From contig QEOQ01000180.1 in the NCBI GenBank assembly GCA_010279815.1, positions 2,563,297 through 2,627,296 on the forward strand: a DNA stretch of 64,000 bases, given 5' to 3'. Shown in pieces: positions 4,001 to 47,407 of the stretch (its first letter is position 1; every line of letters begins with the position of its first letter). Source of the stretch: Brachionus plicatilis. Taxonomy: Eukaryota > Rotifera > Eurotatoria > Ploima > Brachionidae. Made by a program: the position numbers and the translations under genes. The notes under the pieces are model-generated. The model worked only from the letters and a program-made list of their open reading frames with translations, made no database searches and had not been told where the DNA came from.

Positions 4001-6853
4001 TATGCTAAAATATTATAGAATAAAAAAAAATATTAATCGATATTTTAGTATAATTGAAGTATAACTTTAACAAGACATGAACTACTGACAGGTTTATGTT
4101 ATAATGTCTGCCTTTTGCATGTCAAAAAATTTTCTTTAGTTGATCTCTTGATAGCTTTAAATACTTTCAGTCATTTAAATAAAACCATATAATAACATTC
4201 TACCGTTAGAATATAGACAAAGAATAAAAATATAGCAATTAAAATCTAATTTTGATTGATATTTATAAAGGTTAAAATATTAAATAGAATTCCATAGTTC
4301 TTTTATCCAAAATATTAACCTTAAACTAGTTTTCCTAATTGTTGAATCAAAAGATTACATTAAAAATTTTGGCTAAGGCTTTTACATACTCTGTTTAAAT
4401 TTTAACTAGTTTAAATTCATGCTAAGATAAACAAAATGATTAAAGTTAGGTGTTGTGAAATTTTTTTAATTTTCTTTTTTATTCAAAAATTGGGATTGAA
4501 ACTAATTAACTAAAAATATATGTGATTAGTCTAATTTTTGCTTCCTTAGCATTTTTGAGAAAAAATAGAAATAATTTAAAACATTTGAAGGCTTTCCCAT
4601 TGAAACGGAAGCATAAATTTTCTCAATATTTATTATTTAAAAAGGAGTCTGAATATTTGGCAAAATGAAAATAATTTTACAATTTTACATTTTCATATTT
4701 TTAGATTTTTTGTGCAATATTTCAGAAAATTAAAAAAAACTCTTCAAATTAATTTATTAAAAAAATTAAAATTAAAAATGTAAAATTTTCTTCATTTTGC
4801 CTAATATTTTTTATCTAACATAATTTTTATGTAGCTACTCAGACTATTTTTTTTACTTTTAAAATTGATCTTTTGATTCAATTTTTTTAGAAACCCAGAG
4901 TTAACTGTTTCTCTATGATGTCTTAGATCCAAAAAATTTTTGTCTATTCTTTGATTTTAAATTTTGAAAAATTAATTAATTTCGTATAACGATTGCATCA
5001 AAGAGTTGGCAAACTTTTCGAAATAAGCTAAAAAATTATTCTTTTGAATGTAATTGTCATTTGCAAAAAAGTATTTCACTAATTTGGAATTAAATTTTTC
5101 ATATTTTCGGTAAGAAATGTAGGAAATATTAGGAAAAAATTTCTTAGAAAAAAAATCTCAAATAATTTAAATTATACTGTTACTATTGTTATTATCTCTA
5201 AATCATTAATTTAGAAAAAGCACAAATAGATTACGTATTATTATTAATCAAATTTATCTTATTCAAAGGCTTGATAAAACAAATTCAAAGTTTGTATAAT
5301 ATTAACTGTTCAGGATGTATTCGTAAAGGTTTTAATGGAAAATGGAATTTTTCTCAATGGAAAAAAAGACAATTACAATTATATTATTCTTTAAATTAAG
5401 AATTTTTATCGAAATAATTTCAAAATTGTATAAATCATATATTCGTATATAAATTTTGATTAAATAACACGAAGAAAACTCTAATCATAGATTAAATATT
5501 TTTACTCTTCGCCATAAAAATTTTATCCTCAATTTTTTAAAATTCATTCTAAAATAGATTTAAACAAAGTAAAAAAAAATTTAAATTGAAAATGATCTGT
5601 TACGAAACCATTTAACAGTGCCTAAGGAAATTAAACTGTCTCTAAAAACGTCTTAATCAAGCTTTCAAAAGCAGTGAAGCTTAACATATTTCAAAATATT
5701 CAAAAACTGTAACTCAACTCCTGCTACTAATAATGGTACTAAAGTTTATTACTTTACTTCAATAAACTTTCTCTTTTGAAAAAAAAAAAGTGTAATGCAA
5801 TACAATAATTTAATTGATTTCATGATTCTATTATAGTAAAATATCTTTTTTTGTTAGTAATTTTGCATTAAATCTTTTATGGAATAATTAAAACAAAAAA
5901 AAAGGATTTTTTTTTTAATTTCTTTATACTTCTTAATTTTATGAAAATCACCATAATTTTTCTATAGCCAACTTTTAAGAGGTAAAAAAATTATTTTTTA
6001 ACAAGCAAAATCAACTAGCAAATAAATTTAAACTAGAATTTAAATAAATCAATTACAAATATTTTTTTATTAAGAGGACACTTTTTACCTTATTAATCAT
6101 TTTTTTAATTTTTTAGAATAAATATCAAATTTGATTTTAATTTTGAGCTTAATTCCCTTAATAAAATATTTTAAATAATCAAGTAAAAAAATATTTTAAA
6201 GCACAGCTTTTTTAAATATTCAAAACATATTTTTAAGAAAAATCTAAAATTGCCTATTTACTTTAAAAATAAAATTTAATTTAAAAAAAAGAAAAAGCCT
6301 AATTAAATATCTAAAAAAAACCCAAACTTATAAAAAATTTGACATTTTATTTCGTGATAAAAAATTTTTTCCAAATCATAAATTTAATTGTTTTTGCTAT
6401 AACTTCAGCTTATCAAATTGATACTTTTTCGTTTTGCAATAAAATTAAATAGTAGAAAAAAATCTAACTTTAGATTAGAAGTGTTATTCAGTCTTTCATG
6501 ACAAAGACACTTAATAAGCCCTGAAATTGAATTGAATTGTAAAAACAAAAAATTTTTTAAATCCTGAATATTTAGAAAAAGTAAATTTTTAACCAAAAAT
6601 TTAATTTATTTTGCGTAGATTAAATCGAAACAAATACTTAGAAAACACATATTAAAGCAATCTCTAAACGAAGATTATTCAAATGTGAGCACAAAACTTT
6701 TATTTTAATAGCCTTAATTTTTATCAGTTGCAGACTTAGTCCTAGATAAAAGATAAATATTGTGCATAGTTTAAATATTTTATAGAAATACCCAATTTTA
6801 TTGAACATCACTAATTCGATTAGGGAATTTAGAAGAGAGAAAAAAAAACTTAC
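1064..6853. other. AT-rich stretch, no gene seen
   Basis: About 5.8 kb of A/T runs with dense stops in all frames. I see no family motif and no convincing exon. If the giant exon at 6854-9433 and the RhoGEF exons form one gene, this is its intron. The open frame at 6405-6596 is composed of Leu, Phe, Asn and Lys codons typical of random AT-rich DNA. Confidence 0.6.
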
Positions 6854-9433
6854 GCGTAAAAACTCCTCGTTATTTTGGTAAATTTCAAACTCATTGTGCA
6901 AAACGCCGCTCAACGAAGACGTCGAGAAAGAATTTGGCAAGTTAATCGACGATTTTGACTTAGAAATCGTAATCGTTTGGTCCTGAAAAGAGCCAAGCAA
7001 CGAAATCAAATTTTTGTTACTCTGATTCATTTTGATATTCGGTAGTTTGTTTTGTGATATGGCGCTGTTCAATCTGCCAACAACCACGGCCGGATTAGCC
7101 CTGTCCGTATTCAGTCCAGAAAAGTTCTTGGTCTCCATACAATTTTTTGCCACATTCTCTGCTTCTGACATGTCCAACGACTCATTTACACTAAATAGTG
7201 CTTTTTTGTTTTTACACAGTTCGATTACTTTGCCAAAGCTGTCCGAATCACTCACAGGCTTCTTGCACTTGATTCCTTCGCCATAAATGTTACCAATGTT
7301 ATAACTAAAACTTCTGATCACACTTCCTTTTTTAATCTGTCTAGTTGGCAAGTTTTCTGTCAAATGGACACTGGAAATCACATCGCCACCACTACTTTCA
7401 CTTAACTTTATAAATTTGGCTTCTGGCTCCTCTTTTGTGAAATCAGAACAGTCGGTCAAATTGGAAAATGTGTCTGTCGATTTAGAATTTATCATTTTGG
7501 TCATTTCAGCCACCGGTGTCGCCGACAGACGCTTGTGTATGTTAACAACTGGTTTGAATTGGCCCACAACCTTGGCTGGAATAATTTTGGGACTCGGTGC
7601 CGAACAATAATTGCTGTTCCAACACGGCGAAATTTCGGCTTCATTGTCGCTAGCAAGTCTAAAATTGGACACTGTTGCGTAGCGATTTGAAGCGGATTTT
7701 TTCCTATTGTTCCTAGCTGGTCGAACTGGTATGGTCTGGTCCGGTTCATTTTTGTTCTCTACCTGTTGGCTCATTTTGGCTCTTAAATTCTGCTTGATCT
7801 CAAAATTTTTCCAACTAGACACAGACACTAGTTGGCCATTTGACTTTGTTTTTTCCTCATTGACTTCAAAAGACTTAATGTTGTCTATCAAATTTTCTAG
7901 TTTGGTCTCAAAATTAGTTTTTTCTTCGTTGGTAAATATGGTTCTGGTGGTGGTAATTTGCTCGTTGCTGAAAGTGTGCGATTTGACCATTGATTTTTTG
8001 ATGTCCGAATCTTTTTTGAAAGACATTTGCAGCTGATTGGTCATGTTGATTATTTCGTCGATGTTGATGCCAGCTTGTTCGAGAGCGTTTCTCACATTTT
8101 CTGGAATGTAGCCGTCATTGTTGGCCTCGGTCTCTTCCATGTTGGTTTTTGGCTCAAAATTTTTTTCCTGGTCTTCGATTTTGAGGACGGGCCAGCTTGA
8201 TTTCTTTTTTCCATTCATCATCGATACCATCATGTTGTCCAAATTGTCCGAAAGAGACGAATTGGAGTCTCTGGTCGAACTTTGGTCATTGCAAAAATTC
8301 CTGCTTCCAGAACTAAAGTTGCACAACGAATTGCTCTTTTTTTTTCCTTGGAGAATATTTTTGAGAAATTTTTCAAAACTTGGCGACTTTTTGACAACTT
8401 CCTTGTCCAATTTGATTCGATTCGAGCTAAATGACCGCTTTAGAAGTAGATTTTTACATTTGTACATGTGAAAAAAGTCCTCGATTCGAATCGAACATAA
8501 ACTTTGGCTGTTCGACATTGGAAATATTTGATCGTTATGCTTTTTTATTAGTTTATTAAACAAAATTTTAATTGTAGGCGAACTATTTAAAAAATGTTTG
8601 TCACTTTTTGATTGTAAAAGAAATGACAAGCTTTTGTTAAGCCTTAAATTTGGTGGTTCGCTGAAGCAGCGCATGTCATGACCAATAGTGTGGTGCAACA
8701 AGTCATCTGACTCGTCTATCTGATTTGTTTTGTGCGCTTCGGAAGGAATTTCCGAGTTGTTTGAGTCCAAGTGGACGCGTTTCTTTCCCACGAACACTTC
8801 GCACGGCTCCTTCAGTTTAGGCCTTTTTTTCACCGTCAGGTCCAAGTCTTCGACAAAACCCTCCATGTTAAAAGAGTTAAAATCAAGCATGTTCGGCTTA
8901 AGAATTATTTTCTTCAGGTAATTTCGTTTTACAGGGCCTTTAGTCTCATGACTTGACACAAATTGATTTATTTTATTGTTTAGGTAGGATATGTTCTGGT
9001 TAATCTTTAAATAAATCAGTATGCTAGTCAAATGTTTCAGACAATGGGTGAATGTGCCAGAGTGAGCATGCGCTGCGTCCGAGCTAATCGCCGAAATATT
9101 TTCAATTCGCGGATTACCCAAATTAATCAGAGGCAGAGAGCGTTGGCAATTTTTTGTACCCCAAAGGGCTGTGGTTGTGAAAGTTTTTGAACAAATCGAG
9201 TAACTGATTGAGTCATTTATTGAAACATTATATAAGGTATCTAAATTTTGAAAATTTTTACTCAAATTGAACTTGGTAGGTATCAGACAAGTGTTTTTTC
9301 GAGGAGAAGAGTTCGGTTTATTGAAAATGATTTGGAGGCGCTTTCGCAGTCTGATATCGCTGCAAAAAAGCTGTACGAAGTCTGACTTAAGCTTATGGCC
9401 CTTGAGATGATCGAGTAATTGCTTTTGTCTTGG
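6854..9433 (-). CDS. Giant exon of a large, mostly disordered protein (unrecognised)
   Basis: One open exon of exactly 860 codons between a TTTTTAG acceptor (9434) and a CGC|GTAAGT donor (6853), phase 0 at both ends. The frame stays open upstream of the first apparent start (a TTG at 9265) back to the acceptor, so this is an internal exon. Its start encodes a basic, helical-looking stretch (LLDHLKGHKLKSDFVQLF, then RLRKRLQII). The remainder is rich in Ser, Asn, Lys and Glu with acidic and basic patches and looks disordered apart from a short helical segment (VRNALEQAGINIDEI). I do not recognise the family. GC content and codon use are well above the flanks, which supports real coding. It could be an N-terminal exon of the RhoGEF at 1-1063, since phases allow it, but no acceptor in the 1063-440 exon proves the join. 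Confidence 0.65.
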
Positions 9434-20676: not shown

Positions 20677-22382
<1,706 letters not shown>

Positions 22383-23489
22383 TTTGAAATAAATTTTTTT
22401 TGACTTGATTATCTATAAATTATATTTTTGACGTATTTATAGATGTCGAAAAAAAAATGCAAAACTTTATATATATTTTTATGTTTTTTATATATTTATT
22501 TGCTTTTTCATAAATAAATATGTACTTTGATTTAACTAAAAATTCAGCGTTAAATATATTTTTTCTTATTTTAACTTGATATCTAGGATTTTAAATTGAC
22601 TTGATTTTCTTTATCAATTCTCTTTATAAAATTCTATTTTATTATTTAAAATTAAGTAAAAATCACGCGATGTTATAATTTTGCATAAATTTTAATTTTT
22701 AACATTAGAGCTTTTTTAAATCTGAAAATATTCATTTAATATTAGGGTTGCTAAAAAAAGTTAATTAAACATTACCATACTCACTTTTTCGATATTATAA
22801 CCTAAAAAACAGAAACACAGCTTTGGATCATGCAACAAACACTATTTCGTTCATGTAAAAACATTCTGAATTTACTCTTTCAAAGATTTTTTAAAACTTG
22901 AGGTCACATTAAAATCAAGTTTTTTAAGTTTATTTTTTGCTAATTTTTTTGCTAATTTTGGATGATATTATTTGGGTCCTACTAAAACACTGATCCCTAC
23001 TTATTTTAAATTGCAAAAATATTTTTAAAAGTTTTAAATATCATATAGTTTTGAATTTTCTGTACTTTTTGAAAATTAAATAAGCTTCTTTCCAAGATTT
23101 TTTTTTTTTTGAAAATTAAATTTTTTACATTTTGAAAAATCTGGACCCTCTACTGACCCCAATTTTTGGAACATCTTAATTTTATATTTAACTTTTATTG
23201 AAAAGTAATAAATATTCAAAAATTATTAAAGAAAATATTACATCCGGTTTCTCTAAAACTTTAGGGTTAAATAGGCCTATAAAACCTTCGGACTTAGCGT
23301 ATAATTTTTATGAAAAATAAAATCCCGTGATTTTAGTAAATAATAAATATAATTTTATAAACCGAATTGATAATAAAGAAAATCAAGCCCTTTAAAATCC
23401 TAGATATCAAGCTTAAATAAGAAAAAAATATGATTAGCACACATTTTTTAGTTAAATCAAAGTGCATTTTTATCATGAGAAAGAATATA

Positions 23490-27742: not shown

Positions 27743-30700
27743 ATGGGCAAAATTCAATCTAAAAAACTCAAACCTGAAAAAATAATCGCACTTTTTGACC
27801 ATTATAAAGAAACTAAAGATGAATTAGCTTTTTTTAAAGGAGATGAGCTAATCAAAATAAAAAAAATGTAAATTTTTTAAAAAAGAATTTATCAGATTAG
27901 TAATTCTTTATTTTAAAAGAGATGAAAAAAGTATTTTAGCCAAAAATTTACGTAACGATCGAACTGGGATTGTAAATGTTGATCATGTACTGCCAGCAGA
28001 TAGCTACGAATTACAGCCGTAAGCCATTTCAATTTCTAGGATTTAGTATAAAAAATTAAAAAATCTTATTTATTGATAACTGAAGATGGTTCTTTGGACG
28101 ATATTCACGAGTTGCAGCTGAGATTCAGCTGATGTCTTCGAAATGTGAGGATGGGTGCTTTTTAGTAAGAGAAAGTGAGACAACCGGTAAGAAATAAAAT
28201 ATTAATTTAAATCAAATCTATTTTTATGCACTTTACTGAATATTTGATATTAACTAAAAAAATTAATTGTTTTGATTTAATTTCATCTAATTTTGAATTA
28301 TTTCAAAGCTTAAATAAAATTTAAAATAAAAGTAATATGTAAGAAAATATAATATTGATGCAATCAGACCCAGGCGTTAATATTTTTTTAAATATTTTTA
28401 ATTTAAATAGAGAAATATCCTTTTAACGACTAATGCTTAAATAAACCAATTAATTAAAAAATTAAAAAATAATTTGTTGAAAACTGAAGATTAATTTTAA
28501 CTTAAATAATTGATTAGGTGTTTTTAGGTAATTATTAATTGAAAAAAAAATATAAAAGTTAGTCAAATACTTCACATAGCTCAAAATTGATAACTTAAAA
28601 ATTGATCTCTTAATCCGAAAGCAATATGTTTATCATAAGAAAATGTTTTACTTTTTTAAATTATCAATTTTTTAAGTTTTCTTTATTATTAAAAAAAATT
28701 GAAAATATTCATGTTTTAAAATATTTGATAAAGATCACTAATTTAATTTTTTTAAAGATATGATTTATACATTATCAGTAATATACAATGAATCCAATTC
28801 GAAATTTGTAAAACATTTCAAAATCAATTATGACAGAAAACGATTCTTTTTGACATCAAAAAGAAAATTTAAAACCTTAACAGAATTAGTTGCATATTAT
28901 TCAAGTAGATTTTCAATCGTAGTAATATCGAAATTAAAAAAATATTATTTTTTTAAGAGAAAAAAGATGGACAATGCCATTTAAGCTTACCATGCGAGAA
29001 AATTATTAAAAAAGATGAATACTTAAACTTGAAAATGGAAGATGTTTTGGTGGACGAAAGAAATCAGATTAATTCTTATTTTAGTGAATGTTCTGGTTTT
29101 AAAGGTAAATAATAAAAAAATAAAATAAAATTCTAAATTAGTTTATTTAAGGTTATCTAAAAGACGATACCGAAGTAATGATTAAATTATCGAAATATTG
29201 TTCTTCTAAACAATTACTCAACGAAGTCGATTTTCTTAAAAAAATTGATAATAAAAACATTATCAGATTAGTTGGCGCGTCTGTAAATTTTCCTTATGTT
29301 TTAGGATGCTTTGAGAATTTGCCATTCAACGACCTGGAAACGCATTTAAAATCAAATAAAATTAATAAATTTAATATTGTTAAAATTGGCTCACAATTAT
29401 GTTCAGCAATGATTTATTTAACCAATAAGTCAATAATACACAGGAATATACGGGCCAAAAATGTGCTCATATGTAGAGACTATTTTGTAAAATTAGCTAA
29501 TTTTGATTTTGCAATACAGCTTGACTTGAACAAGCAATTTATAGTTGAATGTGTACCTGAAGGTTTATCAAATTCTGCGAAAATATACCATTTCATATTT
29601 TATTTTGTTTAATATAAGATATATCTGTCAGATGGATGGCTTATGAAATTGTTAAAGGCTGCGAAAAAACTGGATTCAAAATTTATAGTGAAAAAAGCGA
29701 AGTTTGGGCTTTTGCAATTATGCTTTATGAAATGTTTAGCAGAAAAGAACCTTACGAAGGTAAAAAAATGATTAAAAAACAATTAATAAAATTAACAAAG
29801 AATGGCATGATATATGATCATTTGAAAATTTTCAGTTAGGTTTATTTTATTTTAAGATTCTTGCATTTGTCACAAGGAATTCACTGTAGGTCAATTATAA
29901 TCATATTTAAAAATTTTCCTGAAATGAACTTTAACAATGTTTTTTATATCATTTTCTGATAAGGCTCCGGTTCTTTTTGAAGTCTTTATTTTTGTTCTTT
30001 AAAGAGATAAATTTTATTTTTCGATTTTTAGCATTTGTGATTTAAGTTAAATAAATGTGAAGCTAAATAGTGATAATATAAAATGATTTACAGAAGTGAA
30101 TTGACTCAATAATTAAAGTGAAAATCAAAAATTTTGGGGATTAAAATCAGCCAAAATAACCTAAAAGAATTCACGTTTATTTTAGAAAATTTTCGTTAAT
30201 TTCTTATTTTTCACTTATATATTGTTACGGTGTTTTACGTGATCTGTCGTTAAAATTGGTCCAATTGCGGAAATTTACTAAAATAGTGAAAAATCTTTCA
30301 TTTTTCTCTATTTAAAAATTATTTTTTTCTTTTTTAAATATTATTTTGCCGAACCTTTGATAATTTGAATAAATTTAATTTTAAATTTAAGGTATAAATG
30401 ATGACAAGACCATAATAAAAAAATTAATAGATGATGATTTTCGCTTGCCTGATCCTCAGCCATTTTGCGAAGAAACTACTTCGGCATTTTATAATAATAT
30501 AATTACAAAATGCTGGCCTAAATGCTACGTAATGAGACCAACATTCAACGAATTAAAAGAAATTTTTTTAAATTATTTTGATGTTTTTGAGCCTGATTAT
30601 ATATATCCAAAAAAAGTTAAATTTGAAGAAATTCCAAACCTTCAGATTGATTATGAAACTTGTGATATAATTGATCAAGGTGTTTTACTTCAATCTGGAA

Positions 30701-31788
30701 ATTATTCCGAAATTTGGAAAGGTTTTTATTCTCTTTTTATGATAAAAAAAATTAAATTATTTTAAATAGGAATACAATTCATCAATAATCAAGTTGTAAT
30801 CATTAAGAAATTCAAAAAGTTGGCAATAAATGCCAAAAGTTTCGGTTTGAACATGAGAAAGTTTTTACACGAAAGCAGAATTCTAAAAAAGTTAAACAAT
30901 AAAAATATAGTTAAATTATTAGGAATAAGCCGAATTAATGAATATTACATCATATTAGAACACATGCAAAATGGAAGTTTAGACGCTTTTTTAAAATCAC
31001 CCAAAGGCAATATTGTTAATTTTGATCAAATTGTAAATTTTGCTGAACAGATCTCCAGTGGAATGAAGTATCTTGAGTTAACAAGAATAGTTCATGCAGA
31101 TTTAGCTGCACGGAATATTCTCGTTGGCAAAAAAAATTTAGAAGATGGATTTTATGAAATAAGAATTGGAGATTTTGAATTGTCACATGAATTAGGTGAT
31201 CAAGAGAAGATTTTGATACCAATTAAAAACAGTAGTTTTTATTTAATTGTAAATTCTTTTTTTCATAACTCTTTTTTAGGAATTGAGATTGCAGCTCGGT
31301 GGACAGCACCTGAAATTGTAATTGGTGAAAATGATTTTAGAATTTTTTCAATCAAAAGTGACGTTTATTCATTTGGACTTGTTCTATACGAGCTAATTAC
31401 AAAAGGACAAATTCCCTTTAAAGGTTTCGATTTTTATCAAATTAATTAGACCTTTAATTTTTTTTTAAAGTTAATTTTTTACTTTATAATTTTTTTTTGA
31501 TTAGATGTGAAGCATGAAGATTTGATGGAAAAAGTTTTTAAAGGAAATTATGCGTTTAAAAAAGAAGAGCTAAACTGTCCAGATAAGTTTTTCAACATAA
31601 TGAAAAGTTGCATAAATTTTAATCGGGATAAAAGACCAAATTTTGCCACTGTCCATCAATGGTTTATAAACTATTTTAAGTACGATGTTCCCGAAATAGA
31701 CTCTATTGAAAAGTTGGTTCCAGTTTCAGCCCAAGTTCCTTTAAATTTGACAAATGAATTGGAGATTGTTGAAATGACAAAGCTTTAA
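27743..31788 (+). CDS. Src-like SH3-SH2 protein with tandem pseudokinase and kinase domains
   Basis: Eleven exons: 27743-27867, 27920-28018, 28086-28186, 28758-28918, 28960-29104, 29152-29562, 29619-29759, 30392-30721, 30770-31231, 31280-31423, 31505-31788. They total 2403 nt, 800 residues, with every join in phase. MGKIQSKK is a Src-like N-myristoylation signal (Gly2, Ser6, Lys7-8). SH3 (about 14-68) starts ALFDHYKETKDELAFFKGD but lacks the Trp pair and ligand-site Tyr/Pro. SH2 (76-173) reads WFFGRYSR, FLVRESETT (binding Arg103), VKHFKI, LVAYYS, DGQCHLSLPC, very close to Src. Kinase 1 (about 190-455) has beta-3 Lys222 and Glu235 but a glycine loop without glycines, HRN (309) for HRD and NFD (327-329) for DFG: a predicted pseudokinase. 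Kinase 2 (about 482-770) has a partial glycine loop (SGNYSEIWKG), Lys517, Glu539, HADLAARN (Asp615, Asn620), DFE (Asp639) and WTAPE. The tail has no obvious regulatory Tyr. It is probably membrane-tethered phosphotyrosine signalling. The domain order is, to my knowledge, not that of any standard family. Confidence 0.9.
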
Positions 31789-33361
31789 TTTTTTTTTAAG
31801 GAATCAAATAATTCCTTAAATATTTTATTTTTTATTTTTTTATTTTTAATCATAAGGGAAAAAACATCAACAATTTAAAACTACAAGTTTTATTTAATAA
31901 ATCTTGGACTTTTTGATGACCAATTTTTTAAAATAAAGCTTTAAATAGTAATAAAACTCAATTAGTAGCGCATATAATAAAATCGGTATTTAAAAAATTA
32001 ACAAAAAAAATTTGAGACATTTTGAATGAATTAAAAACGAATTGTGATTTTCCCTCTAAATAAATGTAACGGTTTTATTTTTGATACAAAACGGTCAATT
32101 TAGATAATTTAATCATTATTTGACAAAACTTGACTATGAAGGATAATGAAAAACTGAAATTTATTTATACTCATATTTATGAAGATACAGTTGAAATGTC
32201 AATATTTACCTACTTTGTAAATTTAACATAAATAAAAAATCTTAATTAGAAATTTTAATATTTTTTAAATGCAAATCTTAATTTTGGTCTATATCTTGAA
32301 ATTTAAACAGATGCTTCCAAGTATATTACTGGAAAAGGAGCCTAAACTTTTTTTTCATTTTTTTTATTTTTTGCCGTTTTATTTTCGCGAGGAAATAAGT
32401 TGAAATCAATCTGATTTTTTATAAAATTTGGGTGATGAATTTCCAGACTTATACAAAAGTCATGCAAAAAAAGTTTGAACAAGTTTTAAACAAGCCAATT
32501 TATGGCTTGTTGGAAAAAAATTTAAATATAAAGTCATTAATTAAACTAAATTTTTTCGGACTTTTTTTCATGACTTAAGTTTAAGTCTGAAATTCATCAT
32601 CCAAATTTTATAAAAAAAATTAGATTAATTTAAATTTTATCGAAAATATGTTTTAGTTAACTTTTTTGTTTGATTCGAACGAAATTACACTAAAGACATA
32701 TCGGATCATGTTTTAATGACATGATGCTTTAACACGTAAAAGATTTCAGAGTGAAATCGTGTTAAAATCAAGTATTTAACATTATTAAAATATTTAAAAA
32801 AAAAAATAAAATTTTTTATTAAAATTAATTTTGGGAAAAAAATTTGTTGAAATTCTAATAAAAATTTTAGTTGTTTAATTATGTTTAAAAAATTTATTTG
32901 TTTTTCTGTATCAAGCAGTAAAACTTAACCAATTTTATTTGTCACGAATGTGCGGACAAAAAATGTGTCGGTTTCAAATTTAAATTTTCCATTAAAAAAA
33001 TAGCCTGCATGAAGCAAAGCCAACTTGACACATTATGATTTAAAAATTTGAAATATTAAAATACAGACATGGTGAGAGTCCGGGTCGGGGTCTAGTAAGT
33101 CCAAATTGTAATCATAATCATCATTAACGACGGATTCCAAAAGAAAAAAAATTCAAAATTATAATAAATTTATTTTAAAATATGTGTTTTAATTTTCGTT
33201 TTGTTTAGCGAATCAATTCGAATTATTTCTTAGTTTATTTTAGATATTCTTCTAACTCTTTTGTAGCTTTTATTCAAACTTCAAAATATTTGCTATAAAC
33301 TCTATACTTTCTATTCAAGGAAACAACTAGTTTTCGAGAAAGCTGCATCCAAATCATACGA
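31789..33361. other. Intergenic region between kinase and ING genes
   Basis: It holds the palindromic element at 32402-32631. Near 33065-33130 the minus strand contains a GC-richer acidic stretch (VVNDDYDYNLDLLDPDPD) that looks coding but has no acceptor or start. The rest is A/T runs plus the ING promoter region. Confidence 0.4.
32402..32631. repeat. Palindromic (MITE-like) element
   Basis: Arms of about 70 bp pair across a central region: TAAAATTTGGGTGATGAATT on the left matches the inverse of AATTCATCATCCAAATTTTA on the right, and both arms continue through a CAGACTT...AAGTCATG block. The middle holds its own small hairpin, AACAAGCC-AATTTAT-GGCTTGTT. Non-coding. Probably a degenerate MITE of a third family. 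Confidence 0.7.
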
Positions 33362-36300
33362 ATGTCACACAGCAAGCCAAACACAACAGAGCGCTCTCCG
33401 AGCTCAGAAAAAATAAAGAAAAATCCATTCTTTGATGACTTTGTTGATTGCATTGAAAACCTTCCCAGTCGCCTGCAGCTCCTGCTCTCCGAAGTGCGCA
33501 ATGTGGACGTGCTGGTCAAAGCCAGGCACCGCAAACTCCATGTCCTTAAGCTAGAGATAATATCCAAGAGCCAAGAAGCAGCCAGTGAAGACGAAAAGCG
33601 AATGGTGGTCGACAATCTACTGATCCGAATGCACCAGCTACTCATTCAGTGTCAGACTCTAGGCGACCAGAAAATTCGACTCTCAAGTCAAATAATAGAC
33701 CTGATCGGGTCCAAAACGCGTCAACTGGGCTTCGATCCCAGGAGTAGCGAGGCTAAATTTCAGCTTGACATTGACGAGGAGAAAATACTGAGCGAATTTC
33801 GTCTCACGTGCAAAAAAAATCGACCCATTCATCACCATTACAACGCGGCAAACTCATCGGTAAATTCCCGCTCAAGCACAAGGCAATTTCAAAATTTGAC
33901 CAAAGCGGGCACCAAGCAGACTGTTGAAATAGGCAAAAAAGTGTACACCAAAAAGGGCCCCAATTTGCACAGAGACATGTGGAACGATGACAGCTCCAAC
34001 CTGGACTATTCGCCTCACAATGCCACCAGTCAACTAAATGGACATCTGTTTGTCAAGAAAAAGCCATTGAATCAGCGCGTCAATCAGCCGTGTGCCAGTT
34101 TTTCGGACTCGAAAAAATCCTTCAAAAAACTAAACGAATCTAAGGTAATTAAAATGGTTGAAAAATTTTAGAATAAAAATTTTTTTATATTTTCCTTGTT
34201 CCAATCGATGAGATTGAAGAAATTTTTAAGTTTTTTTTTTGGCGTGTTATTTGGTGCTGGATGCAAACTTTTACTATTTTGGTCAGATCACATGACTTGA
34301 ATTTAAAATTTAAAAAAAGAGAATAATTTTAGCATATTTAATACGAGTTGCAGTGAATATTTGTTAGATTTGAATGGTTGGAAAAAGTGCATTAGTTTAT
34401 CACGTGGTAGGTGACAAGGCCTCGAACCACGAGTTTGTTAAGTCTCTGAGAGTTGCTTGATTAATTTAAGCTCAATCGACGAGCGACTTTGGATTCGTCT
34501 AATGTTATAGAAAAAAATAACTAATTTAAAGTTGAAAAATAGCTTTCTGATCCTTCTAAGTAGCAAAATGGAAAAATTATAATTTCAACAAGTTTCATTT
34601 TTGAACGAGTCTTTTTCTTTGTTTAAAAAGACTGTTTATTTTTTGCACAAAATTTTTAAATCACGTGGCTAATTTAAGATCAAAATAGAATTAAATTTTA
34701 GGTGCTTTAATTCATTTTTGAATACAAAAAAGCTAAGTGATGTTTAATTTTTTGGGTCTTTTTTTAAATTTAATGAATTCATTTTTAGATTTGAAAGCGA
34801 ATGGGGCCTAAAAGGTGATTTATTTTTTTAAGTTAATTTTTTTGCGACCGAAAATTAAAACTTAAGAACAAATTGAAAAAAGTTAGATTTACATTTGAAT
34901 TGTTTAATTGTTGTAGACTAGAAAATCTTTGAGGACAAATTTGAATTTTTTTTAAATCTAAACGAAAATGATAATAATAATAATAATCTTCAAAGATGAT
35001 TTTTCTGTGGGCTATGAGCTACTATAACAGTTTAAACGGCTTATCATTAAGTTTTTTTTTATTAAGTTAAGTTTTAAAGTTTCTTTAAAAAAAGAAGGTT
35101 TTCGTTTAAAAAGAAAAAAACAGAAATTAAAAAAGATCGTGTGTTCCATACTCATTTTTAAAAAAGTCCATTTTTTTTAAATATTGTGTTTTTAGTCTTT
35201 TTTTTAATTTGATCACATTTGGGTTGTTTATTCCTTGTCCTTAAAAATCATTCGATATGTGCTTCTTAATTTGATTAAAAAATTCAATATTATTTTACAT
35301 ATCTAAAGAATTTCATTTCTATTTTGATACCTCAGTCGTGTAAAATCGAATTTTTTTAATCAAATTTTTTTTTGTTATTTGAGCAATTGATATTTTAGAA
35401 AAATTCTAAATTATTCCCAAAATAATGATTTGATAGAGAATTTATAACTAATACTTAAAAACTAAATCAGTTTTAAGAGTTTTTGTGATATGTCTCTTCT
35501 CCTTTAAAAAAAAATTAAATTTTATAATTAAGATAATTTTATACTGGTGCAGAAGTAATCCTGAAAGTAAAGAATTTTTCAGTGATAAACATTTTTCAAT
35601 TGTCATAATTTAATTTGAAACTGTTCTTAGACTTGAATAAGTTGAATTAATTATATCAATTGAAAAACTTGATCTAATAAACTTAAATGCTACCAGTTTA
35701 AAATGTGGAGAGTTTTTATTAAATTAAAATATTCAAAAATTTTAGGGTATTCGAATAGTTTTCGTTAATAAAATCTTAATTTAAATCTTCAATAATATTC
35801 CATTATATTTAAAAAACAATGTTAAAATAACTTGAAAAATTAAGTTATTTATATTGAGCCAGGGCTCGTTCAGATTAAAAAATAGTTACATATAAAATAT
35901 AATAGAAAAATAAAATAGATTGCTTTCTTAAATTTTCATATACCTTTATCTTTTAACAAATATTGAAAAGTAAACTTTTGCTTCTTAAAAGGATTATAAA
36001 TCTTTTGAAATTTTTAATTAGAATAAAATTTTATTTTTGAATGATTCAAAAATTTCAAATAAAAAGGGTGATGTAATTCAAAATGAATATTTCGCAAAAA
36101 TTTGCGTTAAAAAGTCTTGCATTAATAAAATAGAAAATATAATATGAAAAGTAGTAGGTTGGATTGAGAAAGGAAGCAGAAATAGTAAAATAACAGAGTC
36201 CGATATTCGATTAATTTATATTGTGGATCTTGAAAGAGTTGAGCCAGTCTTTCTATGGATTTTATGTGAAAATTAAAAAAAAAAAAAAGATTAATGTTTT

Positions 36301-39300
36301 TTTTTTCTAAACAAATTCGCTGGATCAAGTTATTGTTTAAATATAAAAAGTAAAAAAACTCGTTATATCAAAATAATTTAACTATCTTTTCTTATAGTTC
36401 TTATCAAATTCCGAATATAAAATTTATTGAAAATAAAATGAAAAAGGCTCGTAAGTACTTTAATCTATGACCATAATCTAATACATGTGATAATTGTGAT
36501 GATTTTTTGGCCACTCATTGGCTGCCTAAATAATTTTCAGTTAAGTAATTTTGAAATATCACAATCGTAAGTTAAATCAAATAGAAAATCAAAGAATAGA
36601 ATTCTAAGAAAATCTTGTTATCATTTTTTATTTTACCGTTTAATTTAGTTTGGGTTAAATGATTAAAAATATTTGAAAATTCAATTCAATTTTCTGACAA
36701 CATTTATAAAAATGAAAAATTATTAAATTTCTTGCCCCCTTATAAATTAAACTTAGGTTGTTTAGAAAAAATAAAAAAAAGAGACTAAAATTTTATTTTT
36801 TTAAAACTTTTTTTTTAGACTTTTTTAAGTGATTGAGGTAAAAAATTGTTTTTCGTAGCACATCTTAAAATTAGGATACTCGCGGTTTTTTAAATTCCTT
36901 TTTTATCTAAAAAATAATCCATAATCTTTTGATAAAAATAAATTTTAATTTTTTCTGAACAAATTAAGTGGAAAATTTTTCGTTATCCTAGTTAAAAATT
37001 TTAAATCTAATCTGATGATGGGAATTAAAATAATTCATCGATTTTTTTCGCATTTATGCCAGAAGGATTTTTAGATCCTCTTAAACTTTTTAATAAAACA
37101 AAAATTACGTAAAATTTTTCCTTGATTCCTAAGTTTCAAATTTGAAACTAAAATTATGAATTATAAAAATTATAAAATAAAATTTTAGTCTCTTTTTTTT
37201 ATTTTTTCTAAACAACCTAAGTTTAATTTATAAGGGGGCAAGAAATTTAATAATTTTTCATTTTTATAAATGTTGTCAGAAAATTGAATTGAATTTTCAA
37301 ATATTTTTAATCATTTAACCCAAACTAAATTAAACGGTAAAATAAAAAATGATAACAAGATTTTCTTAGAATTCTATTCTTTGATTTTCTATTTGATTTA
37401 ACTTACGATTGTGACAGCCCAGCCTCAAGCCGGTACGGCACGTTTGCGGACATGATTTTTTTTCACACTAACCAAGAAACCAATGCTCAATATTTCATTT
37501 TTTTTTAAATTTCTATCTTGTCTAATACACGGTAAGCGATGAGGTACAAAACAATGTACAGAAACTATGAAAAAAACTTAAATGTTTTGAATTTATGTCT
37601 TAATTTTTTATAAAGTTTACAGTTGACATAATTCAAATTAATGAAAATGATGATGAATTTTATTTTCAATATTTTTCTAGTCAATTTTAAATTTTTCAAA
37701 GAAATAATGCTGCGTTAAAAATCAAATTTTATTATTTTTTTAAATCGAATAATAAAAATATTCATTTCTGATTTTTTTTTTCGGTTTAATTTTTGATCCT
37801 GCACCAAATGCATAATTCAAAAAATAATTTTCATTTTTTTGACAGAAACTCTATTTAATATGCTTCATTATATCAAAAAACTTTGCTTTAAACGCGATCC
37901 AAGACTCGAAAAACAACTTTGACGTGTAAGTTAGGGTGTTTAAACATGGGCGAGATGGTATTTATTGCCTGCGCCAAAGTTGTTTTTCAGGTTCTTAGAA
38001 TGCAATATCGAACGAGGGAATACGGTAAAATATAAAAAAAAAATTAAGATAAAATAAAAAAGAAATTTGATCATTAAAATATTTATCAAACTCACTGTGA
38101 CCAAAATATGATCAACAATAAATTTTTACTTATTATCACAAAAATATTTTTTTGATCATTAAATAATTTTTTCAAGAAATAAATGATGAATTGAAGGATA
38201 GCTTTGAACAAATTAGACAAAAAATTGAGCAGTTAGATTTAAAAACCGCTAAAGAAAAGTGAGCTTTTTATAAAGAAATGGCTCTGGCACTAGGAGAAGC
38301 TTCTGATGAAGACATGTTGGCGGCAAAAAAAAAGCATTTAGCAAGTATCCGAATCCGCTGACCTGTAGCATGTGTGGTGAATTAATGAAAAATGAAAAAA
38401 GCGTTAAATTTCACATGTCCAAGAAACATAAATAATTTACAATTTTCTTGTTTTTTTATATAAAAAGAGAACTTAAGTAAAGTTTAGTAAAAATTATTTC
38501 TGATCACAAAGTCGACATGATCCAATTATACGACTATTTCATAGCGTTTGTTACCTGGCATTTTAATATTAACATTTTTTCGAAAAAGACAAAAAATTCT
38601 TCAAAAAAATTTTAAAAATTAATTTTATAACTGATTTGAAAAAAAATCAAAAAATTATAAAATTAATAAATTTAATTTTTAAAAAAAAATTTTTTAATAT
38701 ATTCACAGATTTTTTTTGGCATGTGCTAATTCATTAACTAAAATTACTGATTTTTTTTCATCAATTTTTCTAGATCAATATAAAAATGACTTACTTTTCA
38801 AAAAATTACTTAATTAATTTAAAAATGTGAATTTATTTTAAAAATCAACTTTGACACTAGTTTTTCAAATATTTTAATAATCATTATTGAGATCTAAATT
38901 AGAAACCAGATTACAGAACTCACATTTTTCATTAAAATTCATACCATGCTATTCTAAATTATCAAAATATTATTCTAATTCAAAAAAAATATTTCCAATT
39001 GTACAAAACATTCTTCTCTGGCTCAAAAAAAATGCTCAAAACCTACTTTAACGACTATCTGTTGATTTTTAGATTTTTTAAGTAAAATTATGTTTAATTT
39101 ATAATTTTAAAAAGATTTAGAAAAATTAGTAAGAAAAATATCAGTTATGCAAATTTATGAAAAAAATTTTTTTTTTTAGCAATTTAAGTTAAAAGATAAT
39201 AAATCGCCATTTTTTTACAATAACACATTTTAAAAAATTTTTGACCAATTTTTATTATGAACAAAAAAGTTTCTAAAGCCATGCTGAGAGTGTTTTTAAT

Positions 39301-40401
39301 GTTTTAATAAATTTTTTAGGGTGTACTAAAACGATATTTTGGTGTGCTAAAATTAAAAAAAAGTTTCCATTTAAGAATAATGTCGATGAAAATCAGCTTA
39401 CTCCAACTAGATCCAAGCGTCAATTGAATTTTTGCAAAACTTCAACAAACCTGGCTAAAAAAAGCCTTAACCAAAGTTTGAAACTAAGCCGTAAGCGTCG
39501 TCTTAGCCTTTCCAAAAAACCTCAATCATCAAGCTCATCTTCATCCAGTCACCAATGCAAATCACCTTCATCAATCTCATCGTTCTCCTCATTGTCCTCA
39601 TGCAGGAACAAATACCTAACAAACAACACGAACAATGGCAATCAGTCAAGTAGCACCACCGGCTGCAAGACCACCACTCAGACACTCGATTCAGATAAAG
39701 CCCAAAAAGAGAACATCAAAGTCAATTCAAAGACTAAAAATAATAAAATGGTCAAAAGACTGGCAGCTAGAGGCAGAGCCAAATCGAAAAAATCTGACAC
39801 TGACAATGCCAACCAAGAAGACAGTGAATACGAATCGGATGATGAAAAAAGTGCCGAGTCCGACAATGGGGCTCCAAATGAGCAAAAAACTTTTCAAATT
39901 AAAAACGAAGCCAAAGAGGATCAGCTCGAGCGAAACAGTAATGAAACCGAGTCAATTAAAAACCTGGACGAGGAAGAAAATGAGCCCAGTAATCAAAATG
40001 AGGAAGAACGTCCAGCGCCTAGGAGCAAGCGCATTAAACAAGAAGTCGACTATTCCGATGACATACGCAAAAAATCCACCAGAATCACCCGCAATCACAA
40101 TCTCACCGAAACAGTTACTAAAATTTCCAAATCGGCCCATGACGAGCCGCTGTACTGCACATGCCGCGAAATAAGCTATGGCCAAATGATTATGTGTGAC
40201 AATGATGCTTGTCAGATTGAATGGTTTCACTTCAATTGTGTCAAATTAACCAGCAAGCCTAAAGGTAAATGGTATTGTCCATTGTGTAGAGGTGACACGC
40301 ACAAAGTAATGAAAAAAAGCCATTTAATGCAATCATCTGCTTCATCTAGTCTGTCGTCGCCCAGCTATTACGCTTCGAACTACTCAAATAGATGCAAATA
40401 A
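33362..40401 (+). CDS. ING1/2-type PHD-finger chromatin protein, enlarged
   Basis: Two exons, 33362-34144 (261 codons, AAG|GTAATT donor, phase 0) and 39376-40401 (TTTAAG acceptor), give 602 residues, about twice the usual ING1/2 length. The N-terminus carries the ING coiled-coil: [20 protein letters not shown] then [20 protein letters not shown], with RTRQ-like KTRQ, matching ING1/2 rather than ING3-5. The C-terminus (521-567) is a complete C4HC3 PHD finger ([20 protein letters not shown], then EWFHFNC and [10 protein letters not shown]), retaining the aromatic Tyr and Trp used to read H3K4me3, followed by a basic tail. ING1/2 proteins recruit Sin3-HDAC complexes. The extra length is a Ser-rich, then acidic, then basic linker. 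The 5.2-kb intron is full of repeats. An additional small exon inside it cannot be excluded. Confidence 0.88.
35919..36120 (-). repeat. Partial inverted copy of the 41405-41970 element
   Basis: About 200 bp here match, in reverse complement, 41516-41720. Matching blocks include CTTTTTATTTGAAATTTTTG and GGTATACGAAAATGTAAGAA (with small differences). The copy lacks the terminal inverted repeats. Open frames reported around it are not genes. Confidence 0.7.
36559..37414. repeat. Large inverted repeat, 240-bp near-identical arms
   Basis: Arms 36559-36798 and 37175-37414 are reverse complements with at most a few differences (for example TCACAATCGTAAGTTAAATC against its inverse, and TTGCCCCCTTATAAATTAAA against its inverse). 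The 376-bp spacer has no coding sequence but contains TTTTTCGTAGC, a word from the CAGTACTG MITE ends. The immediate right flank is a GC-rich patch (CAGCCCAGCCTCAAGCCGGT). No target-site duplication is evident. Confidence 0.9.
37850..38025 (-). mobile_element. TA-flanked MITE, CCGTATTCCC family, copy B (left limit uncertain)
   Basis: The right end GAACGAGGGAATACGG followed by TA matches the inverted end of copy A. The interior, read on the minus strand, has TTTGGCGCAGG...ATCTCGCCCATG, resembling the interiors of copies A and C. The left boundary is not clear. Confidence 0.6.
38166..38432 (+). pseudogene. Broken ORF ending in a C2H2 zinc finger
   Basis: A plus-strand coding stretch reads [20 protein letters not shown], meets an in-frame TGA, continues through [20 protein letters not shown] and then needs a one-base shift in a run of nine A to reach [20 protein letters not shown] and [12 protein letters not shown]. 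The ending is C-X2-C-X12-H-X4-H, a classical zinc-binding pattern. One stop and one frameshift mark it as a decayed gene, likely a transposon protein or a domesticated fragment. Downstream words resemble those after the small ORF at 19271. Confidence 0.6.
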
Positions 40402-43062: not shown

Positions 43063-44509
43063 TTAATAAAATTTATTTTTCAAGTCTTTAGGTCGATAAG
43101 CTTCTAAGTCTGATATTGGTTGTTTCTGGTTGGAATTATTCCTAGTAATGGCTGTTTTAATTGATTTATAGGCTTTTTTGTACCGATTATTTTTGTTAAG
43201 TGTATTGAATCCACTGCCTAATTCTTCGGCCCTGATTCTTTCCAAATCGTAGGTGCTGTTTTCGTCGAAATCAACTTCTCCTTTCAAGCTCGAACCAGTT
43301 GATGAATAGTCATTGAACGAGCTAAAGTCTATACTGTTGAATTCGATTTTTTCTCTGGGCGATTTATTTCTAGACATAAATTTCGATGCCAACTTGTTCA
43401 ATTTAGCTCTGGATTGTTTGCCCATGTTGCTTAGCTTGGCAATTAATTCAGCGTTGCTTAAAGTTTTATTGGGATAACTTTGTCCCTTCAATCTATAACT
43501 AAAATCATGGTCGAATTCGTATTTTGAATCAGATTCTTTAAAAAATATCAAATTTTGTTTGTTATTAAAATGCAAATAAAAATTAGAAAAAAAGTACCAT
43601 CATTTAGTGTATTTAAAAAATCTTGATCGGTACGTATTTCGTTCAAAAATTCTTCATTTTGCATCAACTTTGCCAAATACTCGTCTTGGATTATCTGCAA
43701 GCGTTTATTTTCAAACGATCTTAGCAAACTTTTGTATTTTGCTTCCCAATCTTCAAGATCTGTTGCACTCTCTTCCAGCTGGTTCATTAGAACATTAAGA
43801 TTTTGCCTAAGCTCAAAAGATAATTCTGGATATTTTGGAGTTTTCTAAAAACAAAAATTTTTTTTTATGTTTTTTATATAAAATTTTAAATTACATTGTT
43901 TAGCAAGGCCGATATTTCATCTCTTTTGGCAATTTTTATTGAATTTTTAAAGCAATTAATTTGATCTTTGGTCAATTTTATTCTTAAAAAGTCTTTAGAC
44001 AATTCTCCAACTAAAATTCGATCGTAATTTCGAATCAAACTTGGACTTGGTTTGTACAAGCTTTTCGGATTTTTTTCCACTGACGCAGTTTGGTTGGATG
44101 TAAACAGAGTTTTATCATTATTTAAGTCAATTAAATCACCAGATTTTGGGCTTTCGTTGAACGAGCTAGTTGAAGAGGAAGACATTATTTCATGATAGGA
44201 TGGTGGCAAATCATGAGAATCACTTAATGGGTTCACATTAGAACTAATAAGACACGATTGAGTGATATGGCTCGATGAAGCATAGTTTTCATTGTCTATT
44301 GACATGGTCAACAGTTGGTCTAGTGTTTTTTCGACCGAACCATGATTTGAGCGTAAAACAGTTTCAATCACTTCCGAGTCGAATTTAGGAAACATTTTCT
44401 TAAAATGATACATTGATTGGTAAAAATCGAGCTTTTTTTTGGCACCATTCTTTTCGGTTACATCCTCAGCTTGATCTGAACTGAATCCAAAGTCGATCGA
44501 TGTTGCCAT
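43063..44509 (-). CDS. CUEDC1-like CUE-domain protein
   Basis: Three exons, 44509-43895, 43844-43598 and 43535-43063, join in phase (1335 nt, 444 residues; vertebrate CUEDC1 is somewhat shorter). The CUE domain (about 28-70) reads FYQSMYHFKKMFPKFDSEVI then VLRSNHGSVEKTLDQLL, with the MFP and Leu-Leu elements used in ubiquitin binding. The middle conserved block, DEYLAKLMQNEEFLNEIRTD, and the late block, LSNMGKQSRAKLNKLASKF, match the order seen in CUEDC1. A PPSY motif at 102-105 could bind NEDD4-type WW domains. The protein's biochemical role is poorly known; ubiquitin-linked adaptor is the family-based guess. Confidence 0.87.
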
Positions 44510-47407
44510 CGCTGTTTTATTGTGGAAAAAAATTTATTCTAAATTAAAAAATGATTATTAAAATTTTTTGCTTTAAATCTTGTTTTTTTTCAAGCCTTTT
44601 TAAAGTCAAAACAATTCATTATTGAAAAAATTTTAAATAATTTAACTTTATCTTGTATATCATTTGAAGGAGATAAAATTTTAAAAACTAAAATGATCAA
44701 GTTTACTTTTTATTTTTCAGTGAAATAAAATTTTATTGCCGATTTTTGCATTAGGGTTATTTAAAGCATATAAAATACTTAGCTTTACGTTCAAAAATTT
44801 GGATAAAATATGAGCTTTTGCAAAAATTCTTATAAATAAAAATTAATTTTATCGAATAATCTCGCTTTGAATAGTATTGATTTATATTAATTAAAAGTTA
44901 GACTTATCCCAACTTATCCAATTATATTATTAACTTAAAATTTACCTCAATAAGTAGAAAAAATTTATTCCCAATTTCTAATAAATTTATTTTTGATTTG
45001 ACATGGAACAAAGATTCAACGAAGCATTTAATTATTTACTTTTTAAAGTTAATTTTTGAGAATGAAAAAAAAAAAAATTATTTTACTGTTTTAAATAAAA
45101 GATAAAAATATTTAAATTTAAAATATCTTTACTGCTGTTAAACTATTTTTTATAAAAGATTCATAAATTATTCATTAAAAGATTGAAACCATAAAAAAGT
45201 AGACGAGATGATCAGTGAAACTTTAAGGGACTATCAATGTAAATTGTTTAAAGATCTTTTAAAAATCTAAAATAATGAAAACATATTTAGATTTTTGAAA
45301 ATAAAACTAAAAATTAGTTTATTACTTAACAAAAAAAAAGATTCTTTGTTGATTAGCAAGCATTCAAAAGATAAATAATGTGTTAAATTCTACTTCGTAC
45401 TCCATTTTAGTCAGACTTTTTAAAATAAATTCAAAAAGAACTAATATCAAGTTTAGAACCTGATTCTTACCTTTTGAAACATGTTGTTTATGAAAACAAA
45501 ATTTTTTTATCTCTAATTCAAAGAGATTTATTAGCTTTAAATGAACTGACAAATAAATGAAGCAGAAAAAATGGTTCTTTATTTATTATAAGAAAAAAAT
45601 GACAATAGAAATAAAATATTCATGACCCAAAACTTTAAGTGAAATTTTTAACAAAATCTTTAGTCGCTCTGCTAGACTTAAAAATTTTAATTTTAAATTA
45701 TCTTAAAAATAAACACGAAATTAATTTTTAAATCCAAACCTAAAAATTATAAATATTAATATCTGATTTAATTATATTAATGATTGTGAAAATTAAAAAA
45801 TTTCTCTGATAGAATTAAAATAATTAACTATGACGAAAAGCGCTTAGAACTCGATAATGAGTTATGATTATTTTTTTTCTGAAAAAAATACAAAAATATC
45901 AAAGTAACCAAAAATTTTTCATCATTTTTGAAATATTAATTAAACATTATTTCGTCTAGAAAAATTTGCCTGAGCAAGTTATTTAAATTGAAAGGACACT
46001 TAAGAAAATAGTTAAAATGAGATTTATTTTTAAATTATTTTGCTTATGGTGTTTTTATTAAGAAAAATTATGTGAAATAAATAGAGAACACAAAAATTAG
46101 ACCATCGTAACTATTTGAACGAAAAGCAACCCGTCCATTAAGAGTTTCTATATTTTATTGTAATAATAAAGAGCTTAATTTCAAATTGCTTCATAGTCTC
46201 ATTTGTAATATTTAAAAAAATTTAATTATGCAAGAGAATTTGAGATTTTAATTATCAATTTTTATACAATTATGCTTTGGTTCCCCAATAAAGAACTAGT
46301 AAAAACGATATTATAAATTATTTTTTATAATAATTTTTTCTATTAGAAATTATTATTTAGGATTATTGTTGGAGATTTTTTTGCACACTCTCTGAGCGCT
46401 AAATAATATGTTACGCAAAAGCCTTACACTATTTTATGTAACATAAATTAAATGGAATTATTAATCTGATCCCACAATACACATTCCATTCATTGTAAAA
46501 AAAATTTTTTATCAAATATTAAGAATGTCAAAAAATAGTTGAAAAATCGAGTCGTGTCATATCTTTTTTTCTGAAAAGTCAAAATAAATTCTTTTGTTTA
46601 GATTTTTTTAAAATGATTCTAAATTGTTTTGATCTAAAGACAAAAAAATTAATGACACAGATTGTCTCATGTTTAATTTATTTAAAATAATGAAAATAAA
46701 TCTTCGAATTTTTTCGGATTATGGATATTTTTTTTCCTTTTATTTTGAAAGAAAATAAAAATCAATGAATCACGAAGAATTCCACTCTTTTCATTTGCTT
46801 GAACAAACTTATTAAATTAAAAAGCTACAAAAAAATCTTGAGAACTTTGAATGTCTACTAAATTTTTATTTTTGCATATATCTGATATTTGGATATGGAT
46901 TTATTGAAAAAAAAAAATTTTTATGTAAAGTAATATAGTTGGATAATTAAGTGTTTAAATGAGATATCTTTAAATTTTTAATTCTAAATAAAAAAGGTTT
47001 AAGAGTGTGCTCTAATTAATGGAAAACTGGGTGCTGAGAAATTAAAAAAAAAATATTTTCCAAATTTTCATTGCAGTCTATTATTCCATTCCATTTCAAT
47101 GATTAATAAATCTTTAAGTTTATGCTTGTTTCTGTTTTCAGGATTTCTTCAATCGATTGTATGGACTTATAGTTAATAAAATAACTTCATCAATATAACT
47201 TTCAAAATAGTTAGAAACAATTTTTACAAAATGATTATTCATCTTATTAAATAAAATAATTTTATTGTTTAAAAATTTTATGCATCATTCAAAAATTAAA
47301 AAAAAAATTTACACCAAATAGGAAACTTATTGATTATTGATTATAAGCGATTGAATAATCATCGATAATTTGTCTTGAATGAAAATTTGTCAAGAACTAG
47401 ACCGTAT
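44510..47407. other. AT-rich intergenic region
   Basis: No gene, RNA or repeat with a recognisable end was found. The open frame at 45364-45552 has random AT-rich composition and no motif. The 5' part upstream of 44509 presumably contains the CUEDC1-like promoter. Confidence 0.55.

Follow-up and report, generated by a model that had tools for sequence, protein, structure and literature searches.

A predicted pseudokinase-kinase pair on a Src-type framework in the rotifer Brachionus plicatilis and its probable origin by tandem duplication

In Src, the tyrosine of the C-terminal tail is a phosphosite bound by the SH2 domain, and the phosphotyrosine of the activation loop contacts the arginine of the HRD motif. 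In JAK2, a pseudokinase (JH2) sits directly upstream of the kinase domain (JH1), whose N-lobe and hinge are held by the JH2 N-lobe (PMC5770812). Here we describe a gene on the forward strand at positions 27743-31788 of a 64,000-nucleotide stretch of the genome of the rotifer Brachionus plicatilis (assembly GCA_010279815.1, 102.9 Mb in 173 contigs; contig QEOQ01000180.1, positions 2,563,297 to 2,627,296), hereafter the window. The encoded product begins with a myristoylation-like start, followed by an SH3 domain, an SH2 domain and two kinase domains, K1 and K2. Judged from sequence, this is fairly probably a Src derivative of the order SH3-SH2-pseudokinase-kinase, in which K1 is a predicted regulator of K2 and the pair arose by tandem duplication of a Src paralogue's kinase domain.

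By its residues, K1 reads as a pseudokinase. Both catalytic aspartates are lost in the three sequences that cover it, namely the B. plicatilis protein, a Brachionus calyciflorus protein (P0001) and P0121: HRD has become HRN in each, and DFG has become NFD (in B. plicatilis), NFC or NFG. The glycine loop is missing from both full sequences (B. plicatilis and P0001), and the VAIK lysine (residue 218) and the alpha-C glutamate (231) are retained. K1 is not a decaying domain, since it is the best conserved between the two species, with 172/258 residues identical (67%) compared with 161/267 in K2 (60%), 51/82 in SH2 (62%) and 26/53 in SH3 (49%). The stretch behind it, NYFDVFEPDYIYP, resembles the Src tail DYFTSTEPQYQP; its EPDY motif, present in both full sequences and as ETDY in P0122 (a fragment spanning the end of K1 into K2), occupies an internal position between the kinases.

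Conversely, K2 keeps Lys513, Glu535, Asp611, Asn616 and Asp635 in all three sequences that cover it (B. plicatilis, P0001 and P0122). The retention of both aspartates in K2 and their loss from K1, each in 3/3, suggests selection on catalysis in K2, which is likely the only catalytic domain of the protein. K2 has oddities of its own: DFG is replaced by DFE, HRD by HAD or HGD, and one of three loop glycines is left, again in 3/3. No tyrosine lies between DFE and APE in either full sequence, the Tyr416 equivalent thus being missing and the JAK-type double tyrosine absent; the incomplete P0122 has one tyrosine shortly after DFE, at a different position. The losses of the activation-loop tyrosine and of the HRD arginine fit each other, because these two pair in Src. 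Hence, K2 could be either a non-RD kinase with activity or a second pseudokinase. Were both kinase domains inactive, the protein would be a scaffold, in effect a membrane-bound SH2 adaptor. That every sequence lacks the DFG glycine, the arginine of HRD and two of the loop glycines is what such a scaffold would lead one to expect, as is the intact SH2 pocket in both full sequences. Nevertheless, the conservation in K2 of the VAIK lysine, alpha-C glutamate, both aspartates and catalytic-loop asparagine, set against the loss of both aspartates from K1, makes a scaffold possible but rather unlikely.

The regions preceding the kinases bear on how the protein might be controlled. An MGxxxS motif, a putative myristoylation signal by motif only, opens both full sequences; about 12 residues precede SH3, so that the N-terminal unique region is almost absent. 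SH3 falls below the Pfam cut-off (18.9 against 22.9 bits in a scan of the N-terminus by itself, and 20.6 against 22.9 in P0001), but the region aligns with Src SH3, and the AlphaFold model of P0001 places five strands there with a predicted local distance difference test score (pLDDT) of about 90. Its groove is altered in both sequences (W118 replaced by S/F, Y131 by I, P133 by N and Y136 by H/M), whereas the Src2 row compared (Src2 being the paralogue group defined below) retains W, Y, P and Y. SH2 is recognized with an expectation value (E) of 2e-18, and its phosphotyrosine pocket is complete in 2/2, with equivalents of Src residues R155, R175, S177, H201 and K203.

Probably, a Src paralogue, of a kind that the genome still contains, underwent tandem duplication of its kinase domain; the first copy would then have lost catalysis and retained the Src-tail tyrosine motif behind it, and the second would have retained its catalytic residues. 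Myristate would anchor the N-terminus to the membrane, SH2 would dock on phosphotyrosine, and binding by SH2 or of the tail-like Tyr460 would shift K1 against K2. By analogy with the tail tyrosine of Src, Tyr460 between the kinases may be phosphorylated and bound by the SH2 domain. Without the SH3 groove and the activation-loop tyrosine, classical Src control would fail here, leaving K1 and SH2 as candidates; control through K1 would then have to replace the lost groove, activation-loop tyrosine and HRD arginine. We infer that K1 regulates K2. The chances seem evenly balanced that this constitutes a second, independent JAK-type switch in Brachionus-type rotifers, with K1 holding and releasing K2 in place of an SH3 clamp and activation-loop tyrosine.

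Src ancestry is supported by the kinase tree, the SH3-SH2 unit and two introns that, by reading, are common to a Src paralogue of the same genome. The tree comprised 39 domains picked from 244 proteins gathered and from loci of the B. plicatilis genome; partial, Ser/Thr, duplicate and many further Src rows were left out, and labels such as Src2, Abl and Shark for own-genome and unnamed rows were assigned from domain order and tree. Src2 denotes L019 of B. plicatilis together with P0128-P0132 and P0002. K1, K2 and seven Src2 rows group at 99/98 support, or 100/98 after removal of four long rows; the wider Src-type group around them, at 97/96, includes Abl, FRK, SRMS and PTK6 rows as well. An insert after APE is common to K1, K2 and Src2 and missing from the Src rows aligned. 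Elsewhere in the genome, the best match to K1 and its linker is Src2 (C3:1643001, 104 bits), the next scoring 77.5 bits. L019 shares, by reading, two SH2 introns at the same phase, one before the first SH2 tryptophan (the upstream exon of L019 was not located) and one after the SH2 Tyr-Ser. The original prediction, an earlier reading of the letters of the window, had placed the gene on a Src chassis and suggested a tree with both kinase domains; that tree, the SH3-SH2 unit and the shared introns bear it out.

The members of Src2 (L019 lies at C3:1640500-1645500) carry a six-residue insert after APE, the sequence DFGFAQML and intact catalytic motifs. They too lack an activation-loop tyrosine (7/7 rows), and their regulation must differ from that of c-Src.

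K1 and K2 are likely sister domains, at 87/68 support in the 39-domain tree and 89/79 with the four long rows removed. Instead of a duplication within one gene, two neighbouring Src2 copies may have fused, with loss of the second SH3-SH2, an origin compatible with the proposed mechanism. The modest sister support leaves room for this, as do approximately unbiased (AU) tests, and a head-to-tail prediction of Src-type units exists in a catfish (P0127). However, each kinase has three phase-1 introns (K1/K2 columns 32/32, 234/232 and 283/283), two of the three at identical columns and phase, and L019 has an uninterrupted kinase frame at these sites; Pfam, moreover, shows neither SH3 nor SH2 between the kinases. 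A fusion is thus unlikely, if still credible. P0121 and P0122 also carry introns at the K1/K2 sites, by reading of stretches that appear to be translated introns. Vertebrate SRC has introns near these sites as well, so that they may be ancestral.

Several points weigh against a Src2-derived tandem duplication with K1 in control of K2. The K1-K2 sister grouping has modest support and, by a warning of the tree program, joins two long branches. AU tests rejected neither K1+Src2 without K2 (p 0.35) nor K2+Src2 without K1 (p 0.20), and the letter composition of K2 deviates from the assumption of the tree model. The shared introns may be old Src introns that both copies retained, and would then lose force as evidence of duplication, and the nearest Src relative is not resolved in the SH3-SH2 tree. 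DFE, H[A/G]D and the two lost loop glycines leave a weak or inactive K2 possible. Finally, the AlphaFold model, which is that of P0001 (made with 18 sequences), is good for SH3, SH2 and K2 and poor for the K1 N-lobe, with residues 175-226 below pLDDT 50; with a predicted template modelling score (pTM) of 0.45 and this poor N-lobe, nothing is drawn from the modelled domain arrangement. To these is added the placement of K1 relative to JAK.

JAK ancestry was considered in its own right. A JAK origin of the pair, with K1, K2 and both JAK domains as one clade, was rejected (AU p 0.0044), as was the grouping of K2 with JH1 (p 0.0257). K1+JH2 (p 0.31) and K1+JH1+JH2 (p 0.165) were not rejected, but the set contained one JAK only, whose JH2 is a very long branch (length >5) attachable almost anywhere, so that the tree leaves the ancestry of K1 alone unsettled. 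On these alignments, it is well supported that the pair and K2 arose independently of JAK. Thus, the independent invention of the JAK layout that had been proposed stands for the pair and for K2, and for K1 alone is not settled. The opposite course, a JAK whose FERM was exchanged for a Src SH3, with K1 from JH2 and K2 from JH1, would account for the common SH2-pseudokinase-kinase order, the HGN motif in JH2 of Janus kinase chain 7t6f and the K1+JH2 result. It might also draw on Foldseek, which ranks c-Src first for the P0001 model and 7t6f second (whole-chain root-mean-square deviation (rmsd) 30.6) and lists TYK2 JH2-JH1; these matches speak for domains, not arrangement, as whole-chain rmsd is 17.8 to 30.6 at ranks 1-3. 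The VIA list for the same model was taken up by K2. Given the two rejections, the K1/K2/Src2 group and the sharing of the Src2 insert, the Src-tail motif and, by reading, the SH2-flanking introns, such an exchange is very improbable.

The gene model was rebuilt from the raw sequence. It has 11 exons and 10 introns, all GT-AG and 47-632 bp long, with phases 2, 2 and then 1 in the remaining eight (5' to 3'), and a coding length of 2391 nt, or 796 codons plus stop, without frame break. The eleven exons and open frame first described are therefore reproduced, but not the count of 800 codons. For 796 codons to stay open in a random frame of the same composition, ln P is about -75. G+C content is 29% in exons, 18% in introns and 25% in the window. 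All ten splice junctions lie within stretches alignable to P0001; the alignment has a 1-residue gap beside junction 158 and further short ones around 207 and 391. In the whole protein, Pfam finds two PK_Tyr_Ser-Thr stretches (E 1.2e-101); scanned singly, K1 gives E 1e-42 and K2 E 1e-58. The SH3-SH2-kinase-kinase order of the original prediction is borne out by Pfam for SH2 and both kinases, and for SH3 rests on the alignment and the P0001 model; the suggested search of other species found the same order in P0001. To that prediction, the present analysis adds that K1 is by sequence a pseudokinase and highly conserved, that the kinase pair probably stems from Src2 and that a Src-tail motif lies between the kinases.

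The longest intron (632 bp, 29760-30391) contains polyA-like hexamers, which might invite a reading of two adjacent genes, one Src-like and one a bare kinase, misread as one. Such hexamers mean little, being spread across the whole A+T-rich stretch. Exon 8 is a single open frame, free of stops, that leads from the end of K1 through the linker into the glycine-loop region of K2, and a gene end near 30600 would cut this exon. Furthermore, no methionine occurs between residues 438 and 529, and K2 thus lacks a separate start codon upstream of its N-lobe; the domain order is repeated in P0001, and the K1-K2 join in P0122. We give two genes very little credence: SH3-SH2-K1-K2 is, by its reading frame, one gene encoding one predicted protein. 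A decaying pseudogene, which the degenerate catalytic motifs of both kinases could suggest, is scarcely credible in view of 796 open codons, ten GT-AG splice pairs, 60% identity to an uninterrupted protein of another species and K1 as the best conserved domain.

P0001, recorded as a 'Tyrosine-protein kinase' (unnamed protein product) from a contig of 161,646 bases, has 797 residues and is 60% identical over 96%. It is the only full-length relative among the matches listed, which were the best 120 of 7,996 scored candidates (2,861 with E <=0.001) in the protein search and the best 120 of 7,491 (1,573 with E <=0.001) in the profile search; searching with K1 and linker gave six matches, two of them close, from 708 candidates. 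Order, length and motif losses are as in the B. plicatilis protein, of which P0001 is an evident orthologue, although about 40% of residues differ and its record name is silent on two kinase domains. Two kinase matches of >150 residues occur in 4/244 proteins gathered (P0001, the JAK P0026, P0127 and P0028, an unverified sturgeon entry), and, of these four, only P0001 has SH3-SH2-kinase-kinase. In the titles and abstract starts of the PMC matches listed, no SH3-SH2-kinase-kinase protein or such rotifer kinase appeared.

Src (L003), Abl (L002) and Src2 (L019) are separate genes in the same genome, and the tandem gene was seen once: in the genome search with K1 and linker its own exons were the strongest matches, ahead of Src2. 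With the mite JAK P0026 as single query and 41/173 first-look candidates scored, no JAK was found; Abl was the best of 42 matches, all of which overlap JH1 and none of which starts before residue 734, so that none lies on FERM, SH2 or JH2. STAT_bind and STAT_alpha profiles had no match in the genome; as they had none in control genomes either, this does not establish absence. One match to a JAK-type SH2 model fell below cut-off (26.5 against 27 bits) and is tensin-like by eye. If the lineage is without JAK, the tandem protein would be the sole pseudokinase-kinase tyrosine kinase seen in this genome, which is put forward as a lead.

A Src-like reading frame of 183 residues (L009, C54:230348-230581) is found some 8 kb away from the Src gene L003, with a Src-like N-terminus and an SH2 near that of Src by eye, and neither SH3 nor kinase in the one frame examined. 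Within the window, the exons of the tandem gene are given in Table 1. Its neighbours on the forward strand include an ING N-terminal domain (33299-34171, Pfam) and, 5 kb beyond, a PHD finger below the Pfam cut-off with a long low-complexity stretch (39277-40401); the two may belong to a single ING gene divided by a long intron. On the reverse strand are an aldehyde dehydrogenase exon (21846-22412, Pfam Aldedh), an exon of a CUE-domain protein (43886-44533), a 348-codon open frame with a sulfotransferase domain (53547-54593, Pfam Sulfotransfer_2) and a 931-codon open frame without Pfam matches (6638-9433).

Table 1. Exons of the tandem-kinase gene, in window coordinates
Feature	Position	Strand	Content
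Exon 1	27743..27867	+	MGxxxS N-terminus and first half of SH3; aligned to P0001
Exon 2	27920..28018	+	Remainder of SH3; S, I, N, H at groove positions W118, Y131, P133, Y136
Exon 3	28086..28186	+	SH2 part 1 with FLVRES arginine; intron precedes first Trp, common to L019 by reading
Exon 4	28758..28904	+	SH2 part 2; intron after Tyr-Ser, common to L019 by reading
Exon 5	28958..29104	+	SH2-K1 linker and K1 start, without glycine-rich loop
Exon 6	29152..29562	+	K1 N-lobe and catalytic loop; HRN 29439-29447 (for HRD), NFD 29499-29507 (for DFG)
Exon 7	29619..29759	+	K1 C-lobe including insert after APE position (EKTGFKIY), common to Src2 group
Exon 8	30392..30721	+	K1 end, Src-tail-like EPDY (Tyr460 at 30598-30600), inter-kinase linker, K2 start
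Exon 9	30770..31231	+	K2 core; Lys513 30805-30807, HAD 31093-31101, DFE 31171-31179
Exon 10	31280..31423	+	K2 RWTAPE and C-lobe
Exon 11	31505..31788	+	K2 end, C-terminal tail without Tyr, stop codon

A Src derivative with the JAK layout would be a second natural case of pseudokinase-kinase pairing. It makes testable whether pseudokinase control needs specific interfaces, such as the JH2 N-lobe on the JH1 N-lobe, or arises readily after duplication, and whether losses of the SH3 groove, activation-loop tyrosine and HRD arginine accompany such control. If K1 controls K2, the protein would offer a compact model system without FERM or cytokine receptor.

Among known proteins, the catfish (Bagarius yarrelli) P0127 likewise has two Src-type kinase domains in a single predicted protein. 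This 970-residue prediction, however, repeats SH3-SH2-kinase, with an SRMS-like and a PTK6-like unit head to tail, keeps HRD and DFG in both kinases and may reflect two adjacent genes joined in annotation. With the Src family (c-Src, Src42A, Src64B) and Src2, the B. plicatilis protein shares the MG start, a probable SH3 ahead of SH2 and kinase, an intact SH2 pocket and a tail-type tyrosine motif behind the (first) kinase, and with Src2 also the missing activation-loop tyrosine and the insert after APE. Src and Src2 have one C-terminal kinase, whereas the B. plicatilis protein has two, the first without catalytic aspartates; compared with Src, it has also lost the SH3 groove residues and almost all of the unique region.

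The likeness to JAK1-3 and TYK2 lies in the order of SH2, pseudokinase and kinase. It goes further than was first claimed, as K1 has lost both catalytic aspartates and K2 has kept both; indeed, HGN in JH2 of 7t6f, presumably a JAK1 chain, is the same Asp-to-Asn change as HRN in K1. Conversely, JAK has a FERM domain, for which the B. plicatilis protein has SH3 and the myristoylation motif; Pfam found no FERM in the whole protein or in P0001, up to E 1. K2, moreover, groups with Src and not with JH1, and is without activation-loop tyrosines. Taken together, a layout known from JAK is met here on a Src derivative, where it likely evolved separately.

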